NCBI GenBank assembly: GCA_002254845.1
Contig: NKPT01000001.1
Location: 77,001 to 141,000 of the forward strand
Direction: 5' to 3'
DNA: 64,000 nt
DNA from: Chloracidobacterium sp. CP2_5A
GTDB taxonomy: Bacteria > Acidobacteriota > Blastocatellia > Chloracidobacteriales > Chloracidobacteriaceae
Positions 11,335 to 15,956 of this stretch are shown here, piece after piece. Below the pieces are notes generated by a model, which saw only the letters and a list, made by a program, of their open reading frames with translations, had not been told where the DNA came from and made no database searches. The position numbers and the translations under genes were made by a program. Numbering within the stretch: position 1 is the first letter of the stretch; every line of letters starts with the position of its first letter.

Positions 11335-11754
11335 ATGCCTCTCACACTCGACATCGTAACGCCCGAACGGGCCTTGCCTTCCCAAACCGCGGAGGAAGTC
11401 GTTTTGCCGGCGCTGGACGGCGAAATCGGCATCTTGCCTGGTCACGCCGCGCTCATGTCGCAACTTGGCGTAGCCGGACTTCTGACCTACCGCCAGGGCG
11501 GTAAGGAGACCCTGGCGTTTGTGACCCAGGGCTTTGTCGAAGCGCTTGGCGACCGCGTGACGGTGCTGACCGAACGGGCCGAGCTGGCTGAAGACATTGA
11601 CATCGAGGATGCCCGCGCGCGCCTGCGCGAGGCGGAGCTGGCGCTCAAGAAAGCTGAATCCGAGCGTCCCGACGACGACCTATCGCGCCTGCGGGCCGAG
11701 CTTGAGTCTTCCCTGGTCAGGGTCAGGACGGCTGAGCGTTACCAGTCGCGCTAA
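11335..11754 (+). CDS. atpC: F-type ATP synthase epsilon subunit
   Basis: A 139-residue protein with the epsilon N-terminal beta sandwich: TLDIVTPERAL, the LPALDGEIGILPGHAALMSQL block and FVTQGFVEALGDRVTVL. A two-helix C-terminal region (about 88-137) follows and could act as the regulatory inhibitory arm. It is the central-stalk subunit that couples rotor to F1. Unusually, atpD does not precede it: the neighbours are OsmC and an Lgt paralogue 24 bases downstream, so the atp operon is split in this genome. No good Shine-Dalgarno is evident. Confidence 0.92.
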   Translation: MPLTLDIVTPERALPSQTAEEVVLPALDGEIGILPGHAALMSQLGVAGLLTYRQGGKETLAFVTQGFVEALGDRVTVLTERAELAEDIDIEDARARLREAELALKKAESERPDDDLSRLRAELESSLVRVRTAERYQSR

Positions 11755-11778: not shown

Positions 11779-12564
11779 ATGAGCTTCCCGCACGACATTC
11801 GGTTGCCGGGGATGGTCATTCCCATCCATCTTGTCTGCGAGGCGCTGGCCTACGGCGTTGGCTTTCGGCTCTACGTCCGGGCGCGTCGCCGCCAGCTGAG
11901 CGCTGAGCAAGCCGTCTGGACGCTGGTTGGCTGCCTCTTTGGCGCGTGGCTTGGCTCGAAGCTGCTGGCCTGGCTGGAAACGCCAACGCTTTACTGGCGC
12001 TATCGAGCCAACCCGCTCATCTGGCTCGAGGGCAAGTCCATTGTCGGCGGGCTGCTGGGCGGCTGGGCCGGCGTCGAAGTCGCCAAGCGCCTGACGGGCG
12101 TTCGGCAGGCGACCGGCGACGCCTACGTGACGCCCCTGATCGTCGGGATAGCCATCGGTCGCGTCGGATGCTTTCTAACCGGCCTGACGGACGGCACCTG
12201 CGGGGTGGCGACCGATCTTTGGTGGGGCGTGGACTTTGGCGACGGGCTGCCTCGCCATCCAACGCAGCTGTACGAAATCGCCTATCTGGCGGCGCTTGGC
12301 GCGACGCTTCGCTGGATGGCCAGCGCGGACGATCCGCCAGGCGCGATGTTTCGCCGATTTCTGCTTGGTTACTTCGGCTTTCGCCTCACGGCGGAATTCA
12401 TTAAGCCGCGTCCGTTTTTGTATCCGTGGGGGCTGACCGCTATTCAGACGGCGGCGCTGCTGGGGATGGGCGCGGCCGGCTACGACCTGTGGCGGCTGGG
12501 GCGTCAGCCGCGCAACCTGATGTTATCGCCTCTGACAGGCGAGGGAGAATGCCCGCATGGCTGA
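11779..12564 (+). CDS. Divergent Lgt-family (prolipoprotein diacylglyceryl transferase-like) membrane protein
   Basis: A 261-residue polytopic protein with the Lgt fold and landmarks: GKSIVGGLLGG (85-95), GRVGCFLTGLTDG (127-139), HPTQLYE (160-166) and FRLTAEFIKPR (201-211). Against E. coli Lgt the conserved Arg143 and Arg239 equivalents are kept (Arg128, Arg202), but the essential His103 position is Val89 and Asn146 is Cys131. It therefore probably is not the genuine lipoprotein diacylglyceryl transferase, but a paralogue still likely to bind phosphatidylglycerol-type lipid. It overlaps the downstream Tes-like radical SAM gene by 8 bases, so the two are translationally coupled and likely act together. 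Reaction unknown. Confidence 0.85.
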   Translation: MSFPHDIRLPGMVIPIHLVCEALAYGVGFRLYVRARRRQLSAEQAVWTLVGCLFGAWLGSKLLAWLETPTLYWRYRANPLIWLEGKSIVGGLLGGWAGVEVAKRLTGVRQATGDAYVTPLIVGIAIGRVGCFLTGLTDGTCGVATDLWWGVDFGDGLPRHPTQLYEIAYLAALGATLRWMASADDPPGAMFRRFLLGYFGFRLTAEFIKPRPFLYPWGLTAIQTAALLGMGAAGYDLWRLGRQPRNLMLSPLTGEGECPHG

Positions 12565-13969
12565 CCGACCCTATGTGTTTTACGAGCTAACCAACGCGAT
12601 TTGCTCCATCTGTCTGCACAAGGTCGAAGCCAAAATCGTCATCGAGGGCGAACGGGTGTATATGCACAAGCTTTGCCCAACGCACGGACGCGAGCGCGCG
12701 CTCATCTCGACCGACGCGGCGTTTTACAGACAGCAGCGCGCTTTTCTCAAGCCTGGCCAGCTTGTCAAGAAGTTCAACACGCCGATTCGGCACGGCTGCC
12801 CGTACGATTGCGGCATCTGTCCCGATCATGAGCAGCACGGCTGCCTGACCATTGTGGAAGTCACCGACCACTGCAACCTGACCTGCCCGATTTGCTACGC
12901 CGAGTCAGGGCCGCACCGCCCGACGCATCGCTCGCTGGAACGGATCGAGTTCATGCTGGACTGCGTCGTCCGCAACGAGGGCGAGCCGGACATCGTGCAA
13001 ATCAGCGGCGGCGAGCCGACGCTTCACCCGCAGTTCTTTGAGATTCTCGACGCTGCGCGCCGCCGTCCCATCAAGCATCTGATGGTCAACACGAACGGGC
13101 TTCGCATCGCGCAGGACGCCGCCTTTGCCGAGCGGCTGGCGAGCTATATGCCAGGCTTTGAGGTCTATTTGCAGTTTGACTCGCTGCGGGCGGACGCGCT
13201 GCGCGACTTGCGCGGCGCGGACTTGCGAGCGATACGCGAGCAGGCGCTAGAACGCCTCGACCGCCTGAAGGTTTCGACGACGCTGGTTGTCACGCTCAAG
13301 AAGGGCGTCAACGACGATGAAATTGGCGATATCGTCGCGTTCGCGCTTCAGCATCCGTGCATCCGGGGCGTGACGCTTCAACCGGTACAGGTCGCCGGGC
13401 GGACGGAAAATTTCAACCCGGCGCGCGACCGCCTGACGCTCGGCGAAGTCCGGCAATCCCTGCTCCGTCAGACGCCGTGGCTCAAGCCGCAGGACGTGTT
13501 GCCCGTGCCCTGTCATCCCGACTGTCTGGCGATGGCCTACGCGCTGAAAATAGGCGGCGAGGTCATCCCGCTAACCGGACTCATTGACCCCGAACTGCTC
13601 CTGACAAGCGATGGCAGCGCCATCGCTTATGAGCGCAGTCCGGCGCTGCGCGAGCAGATTTTCAAGACGTTTTCGACCGGGCACGCGCCGGCCATGCAGG
13701 CGCTTTCGCTCAAGCAGCTTTTGTGTTGCCTGCCGCTCGCGAGCGCGCCGGAGCAGCTCACCTATGAAAACATCTTCCGGATTTTGATTGTGCAGTTTAT
13801 GGACGCCCACAGCCTTGACGTTCGCTCAGTCAAGCGGTCGTGCGTGCATATTGTCCATCCCGACGGGCGCGTCATCCCGTTTGACACGTTCAACTTGTTT
13901 TACCGCGACGGGCGCGAGGCGCAGCTCAACCCGCGGCGCCACCAGTGGCCCGCCGCCGCGGCTGATTGA
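12557..13969 (+). CDS. Radical SAM protein of the tetraether lipid synthase (Tes/COG1964)-like family
   Basis: A 470-residue protein. Order: cysteine-rich N-terminus with CSIC (16-19) and CPTH (40-43), a second cluster-like motif CPYDCGIC...C (81, 85, 88, 96), then the radical SAM cysteines CNLTCPIC (106, 110, 113) and GGEP (151-154); further cysteines CHPDC (319, 323), CC (390-391) and C429 could hold an auxiliary cluster. This layout (rubredoxin-like site, radical SAM cluster, auxiliary clusters) is that of archaeal Tes, which joins two lipid tails by a C-C bond, and of bacterial membrane-spanning lipid synthase homologues. Coupling to an Lgt-fold membrane protein fits a membrane-lipid substrate. 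The exact reaction is inferred, not shown. Confidence 0.85.
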   Translation: MADRPYVFYELTNAICSICLHKVEAKIVIEGERVYMHKLCPTHGRERALISTDAAFYRQQRAFLKPGQLVKKFNTPIRHGCPYDCGICPDHEQHGCLTIVEVTDHCNLTCPICYAESGPHRPTHRSLERIEFMLDCVVRNEGEPDIVQISGGEPTLHPQFFEILDAARRRPIKHLMVNTNGLRIAQDAAFAERLASYMPGFEVYLQFDSLRADALRDLRGADLRAIREQALERLDRLKVSTTLVVTLKKGVNDDEIGDIVAFALQHPCIRGVTLQPVQVAGRTENFNPARDRLTLGEVRQSLLRQTPWLKPQDVLPVPCHPDCLAMAYALKIGGEVIPLTGLIDPELLLTSDGSAIAYERSPALREQIFKTFSTGHAPAMQALSLKQLLCCLPLASAPEQLTYENIFRILIVQFMDAHSLDVRSVKRSCVHIVHPDGRVIPFDTFNLFYRDGREAQLNPRRHQWPAAAAD

Positions 13970-13985: not shown

Positions 13986-14528
13986 ATGCCCGAACGCCGA
14001 TTGGATTCCGATGCCCCCCTGGCTGAGGCCCCGGCGGTCGTTTCGCGCCTGCGAGTGCGCTACGCCGAGACCGACCAGATGGGCGTCGCCTACCACGCCA
14101 ACTATCTGGTCTGGATGGAAGTCGGGCGGACGGACTACTGCCGCGCCTGCGGACTGGCCTATCGCGATCTGGAGGCGGCAGGCATCCGGCTGGTAGTCGC
14201 CGAAGCGCGCGCTCGGTATCAGGCGGCGGCGCGCTATGACGACGCGCTACGGATTGAGACGCGCCTGACGGTCTTGCGCTCGCGGCAGATTGGCTTCGCC
14301 TACGCTATCTACCGCGAAGACGACAACGCCCTGCTGGCGACGGGCGAGACGCTCCACCTGCCGACCGACGCGCAAGGCCGGGCAATGCGCTTGCCGGCGG
14401 AAGCCCGCCGCGCGCTGTCGTCGCTGCGCGGCGCGGGCGACGAGCGACAGGCAACGCGAGCGCCGGGCGCGCGGACTGGCGCTGTCCGTCGCCGCGCTTC
14501 CTTGCTTGCCGGCGGCGGTTGCGCGTAA
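13986..14528 (+). CDS. Acyl-CoA thioesterase, 4-hydroxybenzoyl-CoA thioesterase (YbgC/FadM-like) family
   Basis: A 180-residue hot-dog-fold protein. The motif RYAETDQMGVAYHANYLVWMEVGRTDY is cut here to its key parts: YAETDQMGV with the catalytic Asp, then YHANY and the helix WMEVGR. These define the YbgC/FadM group, which hydrolyses acyl-CoA thioesters. The chosen ATG lies 16 bases after the radical SAM stop and just before the first conserved residues. The last 40 residues are Arg/Ala-rich and lack family similarity. Its place in the run suggests, but does not prove, a role in supplying or clearing acyl groups for the lipid genes upstream. Confidence 0.88.
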   Translation: MPERRLDSDAPLAEAPAVVSRLRVRYAETDQMGVAYHANYLVWMEVGRTDYCRACGLAYRDLEAAGIRLVVAEARARYQAAARYDDALRIETRLTVLRSRQIGFAYAIYREDDNALLATGETLHLPTDAQGRAMRLPAEARRALSSLRGAGDERQATRAPGARTGAVRRRASLLAGGGCA

Positions 14529-14573: not shown

Positions 14574-15956
14574 ATGACTTCACTGACGCCTCCGCTTTCA
14601 GGGCGACTTTCACGGCGACGCTTCCTGCGCTTTCTGACGGCATCGGCCGCATTCCTGGCTTCAGTTCGGGCGACGCCGGGCCGCTCGGTCGCCGGCAGCG
14701 TCATCGTGGTCGGAGCCGGACTCGCCGCCGCCCGCGCGCTGGCGGATGCGGGCGCGGAAGTGACCGTCCTGGAAGCGCGCGACGATGTTGGCGGTCGCAT
14801 CCGCACCGACCGCTCGCTGGGCTTTCCCTTTGACTTGGGCGCGGCCTGGATTCACGGCCCCAACGGCAATCCGATTACCGACCTTGCCGCCCAAGCTAAA
14901 GCGCGCACCTTCTTGACTGATGACGAAAGCGTTGTCATCTATGACCGCGACGGGCAGCCGATTCCCGGCAAGGTGGTCGTTGAGCGGGAGCGGCGCTACC
15001 GGGCGCTCCTGAAGAAGCTTGAAGCCGACGCCCCGCGGCAAGCGGGCGATGAAAGCCTCGCCGCCGCGCTCAAGCGGCTGGACCCCGCCGCGCTGGAAGA
15101 CCCGCTCCTGCGCTACTTTCTGTCAGCCTACGCGGAGTTTGACAGCGGCGGGGCGCTGGAGCGTCTTTCCGCTCGGGAGTGGCAAAGCGACGAAAAATAT
15201 CCCGGCAAGGATGCGCTGATGATTGACGGCTACGACGCCGTGACCAACTTGCTGGCGAAGGGGCTGAACATCAAAACTCAGACAGTCGTGAAAGCCATCG
15301 CTTGCGACGAGGAATGCGTCAGCGTCGCCGCGGCGGACGGTCACGCCTACGAAGCCGATGCCGCGATCGTGACGCTGCCGCTCGGCGTCCTGAAGAAAAA
15401 CGCCGTCGCCTTTGCCCCCGCGCTTCCGGCGCGGAAGCGCGAAGCCATCGCGCGGGTTGACATGGGCATTGTCAACAAGGCCTGCCTTGTGTTCAGCGAG
15501 CCGTTCTGGGACGTGGAAACGCACTACTTTGGCTACCAATCGGCAGTCATGGGGAAATACTGCTACTTCCTCAACGCCCGCGCTTTCTGCGACGCCAACG
15601 CCTTGGTGACGTTTGCCTTTGACAGCTACGGACGGGCGTTTGAGCGGCAGACCGACGCGGAAATCGAGGGCGAAGTCATGGAGACGCTGCGCGTGATGTT
15701 TGGCAAGGACATTCCAACCCCGCAAAAAATGCTCGTGACGCGCTGGGGCGCAGACGTCTTCGCCTATGGCGCGTACTCATTCGCTTCGGTAGGCGTGACG
15801 CGGCAGGATTTCGCGGCGCTGGCCGCGCCCGTCGGCGAGCGGCTGCTGTTCGCCGGGGAGCACACGTCAGCAGCGTATCGCGGCACGGCGCATGGCGCGT
15901 ACCTCTCCGGTCTGCGCGAGGCGTCCCGCGTCGGCAAGCTGCTGGCGCGGCGCTGA
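14574..15956 (+). CDS. Tat-exported flavin monoamine oxidase-like protein
   Basis: A 460-residue FAD amine-oxidase-family protein (polyamine oxidase/LSD1-like fold). Residues 11-40 carry a twin-arginine signal (SRRRFLRFLT followed by a hydrophobic stretch), so it is probably exported folded with FAD. The dinucleotide motif starts VVGAGLAAARAL and ends VLEARDDVGGRIRT; the third Gly of GxGxxG is Ala52, a mild departure. LGAAWIHG and the C-terminal FAGEHTSAAYRGTAHGAYLSG complete the FAD site. The substrate amine is unknown. It starts 45 bases after the thioesterase gene and may be the last gene of the atpC run. Confidence 0.88.
   Translation: MTSLTPPLSGRLSRRRFLRFLTASAAFLASVRATPGRSVAGSVIVVGAGLAAARALADAGAEVTVLEARDDVGGRIRTDRSLGFPFDLGAAWIHGPNGNPITDLAAQAKARTFLTDDESVVIYDRDGQPIPGKVVVERERRYRALLKKLEADAPRQAGDESLAAALKRLDPAALEDPLLRYFLSAYAEFDSGGALERLSAREWQSDEKYPGKDALMIDGYDAVTNLLAKGLNIKTQTVVKAIACDEECVSVAAADGHAYEADAAIVTLPLGVLKKNAVAFAPALPARKREAIARVDMGIVNKACLVFSEPFWDVETHYFGYQSAVMGKYCYFLNARAFCDANALVTFAFDSYGRAFERQTDAEIEGEVMETLRVMFGKDIPTPQKMLVTRWGADVFAYGAYSFASVGVTRQDFAALAAPVGERLLFAGEHTSAAYRGTAHGAYLSGLREASRVGKLLARR

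Follow-up and report, generated by a model that had tools for sequence, protein, structure and literature searches.

A window of 64,000 nucleotides from Chloracidobacterium sp. CP2_5A contains two overlapping genes on the forward strand, the first encoding a paralogue of Lgt and the second a radical SAM protein (rSAM) of the Tes/TrsS superfamily (Table 1). Both reading frames, their overlap of 8 bases and the residues Val89 and Cys131 of the paralogue are as an earlier, sequence-only reading of this DNA had described them. When a larger conserved operon was sought, broad sequence conservation proved to be limited to the pair, with no other neighbour taking part. Specifically, the gene for the ATP synthase epsilon subunit lies 5' of the pair in genomes of the genus only. 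The two genes that follow on the same strand had been entertained as possible further members, which the comparison does not bear out: the thioesterase gene also lies downstream of the pair in two other genomes of the genus but had no counterpart when six further Acidobacteriota pair loci were searched, which ties it to the pair within the genus only, and the amine oxidase found no match in any of the eight Acidobacteriota pair loci fetched, those of the genus included.

Table 1 The gene pair, its neighbours and the residues discussed in the text (positions in the window)
Feature	Position	Strand	Remarks
ATP synthase epsilon subunit	11335..11754	+	upstream neighbour, not part of the pair system
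Lgt paralogue, 261 aa, 7-TM Lgt fold	11779..12564	+	Pfam LGT, E 6.9e-22; match to 5azb, Z 15.2
Val89 codon	12043..12045	+	position of Lgt His103 by the 5azb alignment; V89 nearly invariant in alignment A1
R128 (Lgt Arg143, kept) to C131 (at Lgt Asn146)	12160..12171	+	invariant in 32 pair-associated paralogues
R202 (Lgt Arg239, kept)	12382..12384	+	invariant in 32 pair-associated paralogues
Tes/TrsS-superfamily radical SAM protein (rSAM), 470 aa	12557..13969	+	Radical_SAM, E 8.8e-21; Zn_ribbon_HMPTM, E 8e-16
Rubredoxin-like site C16/C19/C40/H43	12602..12685	+	conserved in pair, TrsS and Tes
N-terminal auxiliary cluster C81/C85/C88/H91	12797..12829	+	conserved in pair core, TrsS and Tes
Radical SAM motif C106/C110/C113	12872..12895	+	conserved in all groups
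Pair-specific cysteines C319, C390/C391, C429	13511..13843	+	67/67 of pair core; putative changed C-terminal cluster ligands
4HBT thioesterase	13986..14528	+	neighbour, probably not part of the pair system
Exported flavin amine oxidase-like protein	14574..15956	+	not part of the pair system

The first protein belongs to Pfam LGT (PF01790), and its structure model (pLDDT 92) matches E. coli Lgt (5azb) over 232 residues, the next match reaching Z 6.3. It shares with Lgt the fold of seven transmembrane helices, the HPTQLYE and GR.G motifs, a glycine that aligns with G154 and, counted along the 5azb alignment, the two arginines Arg143 and Arg239. It differs in that the essential set of Lgt (Y26, H103, R143, N146, G154 and R239) is incomplete, Tyr26, His103 and Asn146 being replaced by E21, V89 and C131 in the same alignment. 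Its scores, furthermore, lie under every NCBIfam Lgt equivalog cut-off (31.8 against 118.9 and 37.1 against 334), the pair-associated paralogues split from canonical Lgts with a tree support of 100, and a separate canonical Lgt gene is found elsewhere in the genome. Two further differences are the partnership with a radical SAM protein and the putative targets, which often have no standard lipobox. Canonical Lgt binds phosphatidylglycerol via Arg143, and the cysteine that it modifies reaches it from the periplasmic side (PMC4728403); distant Lgts with an N146C exchange exist, one of which is partly functional in E. coli (PMC13251419).

The second protein finds its best PDB sequence match in the tetraether synthase GDGT-MAS (7tol, E 2.4e-61), and its model (pLDDT 86, with low confidence at residues 373-393) superimposes on 7tom with Z 43.4 and rmsd 2.6 over 411 residues, so that the Tes-like pattern recognized from the sequence alone is upheld at the level of the predicted fold. 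With Tes/GDGT-MAS (MJ0619) it shares the domain order, the ligands of the rubredoxin-like and N-terminal clusters, the radical SAM motif and the fold over the whole length. The C-terminal cluster site is different: columns 428 and 443, invariantly Cys in Tes and TrsS, hold S/T/A and D/E in 67 of 67 core pair proteins, in all of which the four pair-specific cysteines are invariant and would be the putative ligands of a changed cluster. In the window protein, positions 428, 443 and 432 are S, D and I, compared with C, C and Y in 12 of 12 archaeal Tes. Counted along the alignment with 7tol, I432 corresponds to Tyr459 of GDGT-MAS and V412 to Met439 (M in 39 of the 67 core proteins), two residues that are completely conserved across archaeal homologues (PMC9433317). 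The NCBIfam Tes model (NF045702) gives 273.5 bits against a cut-off of 450, and the best NCBIfam score, a full-length match to the TrsS radical SAM (seleno)protein (NF045646), reaches 318.8 bits against a cut-off of 490. TrsS, for which nothing was found in the literature beyond a table entry, keeps the Tes-type cysteines 428 and 443. The core pair proteins form a single clade apart from archaeal Tes and TrsS (SH-aLRT 100) in a 115-sequence tree from a quick search, which was midpoint-rooted, has several long branches and does not discriminate between proximity to Tes and to TrsS. A likeness to the bacterial membrane-spanning lipid synthase Mss, drawn from its published description only, lies in the Tes-like architecture and the proposed coupling of lipid chains. 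Judged by these residues and scores, the pair protein is no strict Tes, and its identification as one is not sustained.

Among 84,980 species genomes scanned, 80 paralogue loci were kept, about 70 of which have a radical SAM gene within 3.5 kb. The pair occurs in at least ten phyla (Acidobacteriota, Verrucomicrobiota, Cyanobacteriota, Pseudomonadota, Bacillota, Bacteroidota, Planctomycetota, Campylobacterota, Actinomycetota and Thermoplasmatota), with the Lgt paralogue preceding the radical SAM gene in 72 of 81 pairs. The divergence of one protein follows that of the other (correlation of distances, r 0.87 overall and 0.88 within the core; Mantel p 0.001). By this genomic comparison, the pairing is far beyond chance and both genes are inherited together in many phyla, so the neighbourhood survey that the sequence-only reading had called for supports its claim of a real functional pair. 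A close paralogue, 44-73% identical and clearly apart from canonical Lgts, was found in 11 of 149 Acidobacteriota genomes, and wherever it is not cut by a contig end a radical SAM gene lies nearby within wider flanks; in three Nostoc-type genomes tested, the radical SAM protein is encoded away from the paralogue in all three. The occurrence is patchy elsewhere too (9 of a sample of 292 cyanobacteria, 10 of 369 in the class to which Collimonas belongs), a pattern that suits a transferable accessory module. No description of the pair was found in the literature.

Several loci vary this arrangement. Divergent pairs (L105-L117, L161) often have the radical SAM gene first and mostly read GCCYG or GCCFG in the Lgt paralogue where the core has GLxDxTYG. 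One Bacillota genome (G352, L204/L205) encodes three Tes-like radical SAM proteins, two of them in tandem without an Lgt and the third paired with a GCCFG-type paralogue, in front of which lies the gene for a small protein with VVLCF at its end. In Neobacillus pocheonensis (L057:7929-10115), paralogue and radical SAM protein share one open reading frame, either a natural fusion or a sequencing error. Three Poseidoniales-type archaeal MAGs (L067, L073, L081) carry the pair, where contamination is possible; Lgt has been described as missing from archaea (PMC13251419).

The sequence-only reading had the pair act on a glycerolipid, and the corresponding explanation would be that it makes or alters bulk lipids, for example membrane-spanning iso-diabolic ones: the radical SAM protein would couple tails, and the head group would be the task of the Lgt paralogue. 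We consider this unlikely. The whole-length GDGT-MAS fold speaks for it, as does an Lgt fold with phospholipid-binding arginines, which also keeps the proposed glycerolipid substrate plausible. Iso-diabolic acid is described as common in Acidobacteriota. In Chloracidobacterium it is a primary fatty acid (PMC12816986). A better candidate source for it, from sequence features, is another gene of the same genome, located on the reverse strand (C261, L005), whose Tes-like radical SAM product sits on a long branch among archaeal Tes and retains HPNC and the Cys after it, FCAYN and the Met. Further arguments against the bulk-lipid explanation are the loss of the Tes-invariant C-terminal cysteines and of Tyr459, the separate clade, and a distribution that covers a small part of the Acidobacteriota and extends to Paenibacillus, Nostoc, Collimonas and Dyella, genera from which we know of no bulk membrane-spanning lipids. 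It also leaves unexplained the small membrane proteins encoded beside the pair in other genomes. A third Tes-like gene of the genome, apparently split by contig ends (C381, L006, and C385, L004; 36-46% identity), has methyltransferase-like open reading frames near its fragments.

At many loci, a small gene on the same strand lies beside or between the genes of the pair. A cysteine within a hydrophobic stretch is encoded by 29 of 49 such adjacent genes, compared with 19 of 217 distant genes at the same loci, and the residue preceding the hydrophobic run is mostly K or R, which places the cysteine, by prediction, on the outer side where the helix leaves the membrane. By a first rule for such exit-cysteine neighbours, 51 of 85 pairs are positive, as against 0 of 17 TrsS loci, 1 of 24 archaeal Tes loci and 4 of 18 canonical Lgt loci. 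Among 17 loci fetched later from other genomes, 14 were positive by the same rule, one or two of them doubtfully and with one of the 17 (L244) appearing to come from the genome of discovery locus L044. A strict rule (Cys 12-26 uncharged residues after K/R, in a hydrophobic run), composed once part of the data, namely the 14 of 17, was known, selects 50 of 85 discovery loci and 12 of 17 fresh loci compared with 5 of 285 control anchors (p 7e-33 and 4e-14). When the loci are grouped at 70% rSAM identity, 17 of 27 clusters retain the neighbour, and about 40% of pair loci have no adjoining exit-cysteine gene. Comparison across loci thereby shows that most pairs adjoin a gene for a small membrane protein in which, as predicted from sequence, a transmembrane helix is anchored by positive charge and carries a cysteine at its outer end; these neighbours are a new observation.

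The neighbours have little in common apart from this cysteine. One family (A6) comprises 22 proteins with a mean identity of 21%, in whose alignment the start Met and one Cys, C23 in a GxCG-like motif, are the only invariant positions; a second (A5) comprises 14 proteins with a NAACFG-like end and an invariant C69. Members of both were selected for having a cysteine, so its invariance is partly a product of selection and is illustrative. The two families do not match each other, and in ten neighbours scanned against Pfam no family exceeded its cut-off except for one zinc-finger part. Lipoprotein-like neighbours occur at L044, L072, L093 and L115. Beside the pair of the window and of two other genomes of the genus, no exit-cysteine gene is present (0 of 3), and profiles of A5 and A6 found nothing convincing in this genome or the genus. 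G063, from the same family as the organism of the window, encodes a candidate exit-cysteine protein 22 kb from its pair (L264, IGFGSCTAG).

It is these neighbours, conserved in other genomes and not visible in the window alone, that point to protein modification, and we infer that the small exit-cysteine membrane proteins are the substrates. They could instead be accessory subunits or chaperones that use the cysteine for a metal or a disulfide, the true substrate being a minor lipid or quinone. This is the most doubtful of the explanations considered here: zinc-ribbon-like N-termini in front of a transmembrane helix with an exit cysteine, found at L086, L097, L100, L207 and, not adjacent to the pair, L264, would suit it, as would the loci without such neighbours, but unrelated families that share little but a cysteine fit substrates better, and loci L088 and L093 each encode two or three of them. 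An account in which the radical SAM protein modifies the small protein itself, by a thioether or C-C link, while an Lgt paralogue without transferase activity docks or presents it, is improbable to a slightly lesser degree. In its favor, small and variable genes next to a radical SAM gene, with a single conserved residue, recall RiPP precursors; three residues essential in Lgt are exchanged; and the peptide maturases SuiB and SkfB are among the second-tier fold matches. Such maturases, however, reach Z 19 as opposed to the Z 43 of the whole-length match to GDGT-MAS; both phospholipid-binding arginines are invariant, and the cysteine is predicted to lie outside, with the radical SAM protein in the cytosol.

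The explanation we favor, to which we would give not quite an even chance, is that the pair is dedicated to a modification in two parts, lipidation of the exit cysteine by the Lgt paralogue and reworking of the lipid chain by the radical SAM protein. The paralogue would act at the outer face of the membrane, as Lgt does, hold a phospholipid with the two arginines that it retains and transfer the glycerolipid part onto the cysteine, leaving the transmembrane helix uncleaved. The cytosolic radical SAM protein, of tetraether-synthase build with a changed third Fe-S site, would use radical chemistry to alter the alkyl chain of this lipid or of the lipid donor. Lipid transfer is proposed because Lgt accepts its cysteine from the periplasmic side, where the cysteine of the neighbours is predicted to lie, and because N146C Lgts exist. 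As Chloracidobacterium contains little or no phosphatidylglycerol (PMC12816986), the lipid donor there may be a different one, and in this genus the substrate would be encoded away from the pair. Several points argue against lipidation: a radical SAM protein that is presumably in the cytosol and a cysteine on the outer side leave the order of steps unexplained; His103, Asn146 and Tyr26, essential in E. coli Lgt, are all replaced; many pair loci, including all three of the genus, have no exit-cysteine gene beside them; and the neighbours could be subunits instead of substrates. A broader proposal, and an unlikely one as it stands, would make the system a branch of protein lipidation in its own right, present in bacteria and perhaps in certain archaea. 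Its substrates, integral membrane proteins that stay uncleaved, would receive on the exit cysteine a glycerolipid with a chain that the radical SAM protein extends or cross-links, possibly into a membrane-spanning anchor.

Taken together, the pair and its exit-cysteine neighbours suggest, from sequence comparison, an undescribed way of modifying membrane proteins. Bacterial Tes homologues are now counted as candidate synthases of membrane-spanning lipids, a practice that affects climate proxies. The large branch formed by the radical SAM proteins of the pair probably does something other than the synthesis of such lipids and is to be set apart when Tes homologues are counted. Should the exit-cysteine proteins indeed be the substrates, integral membrane proteins would undergo a widespread modification that has been overlooked.
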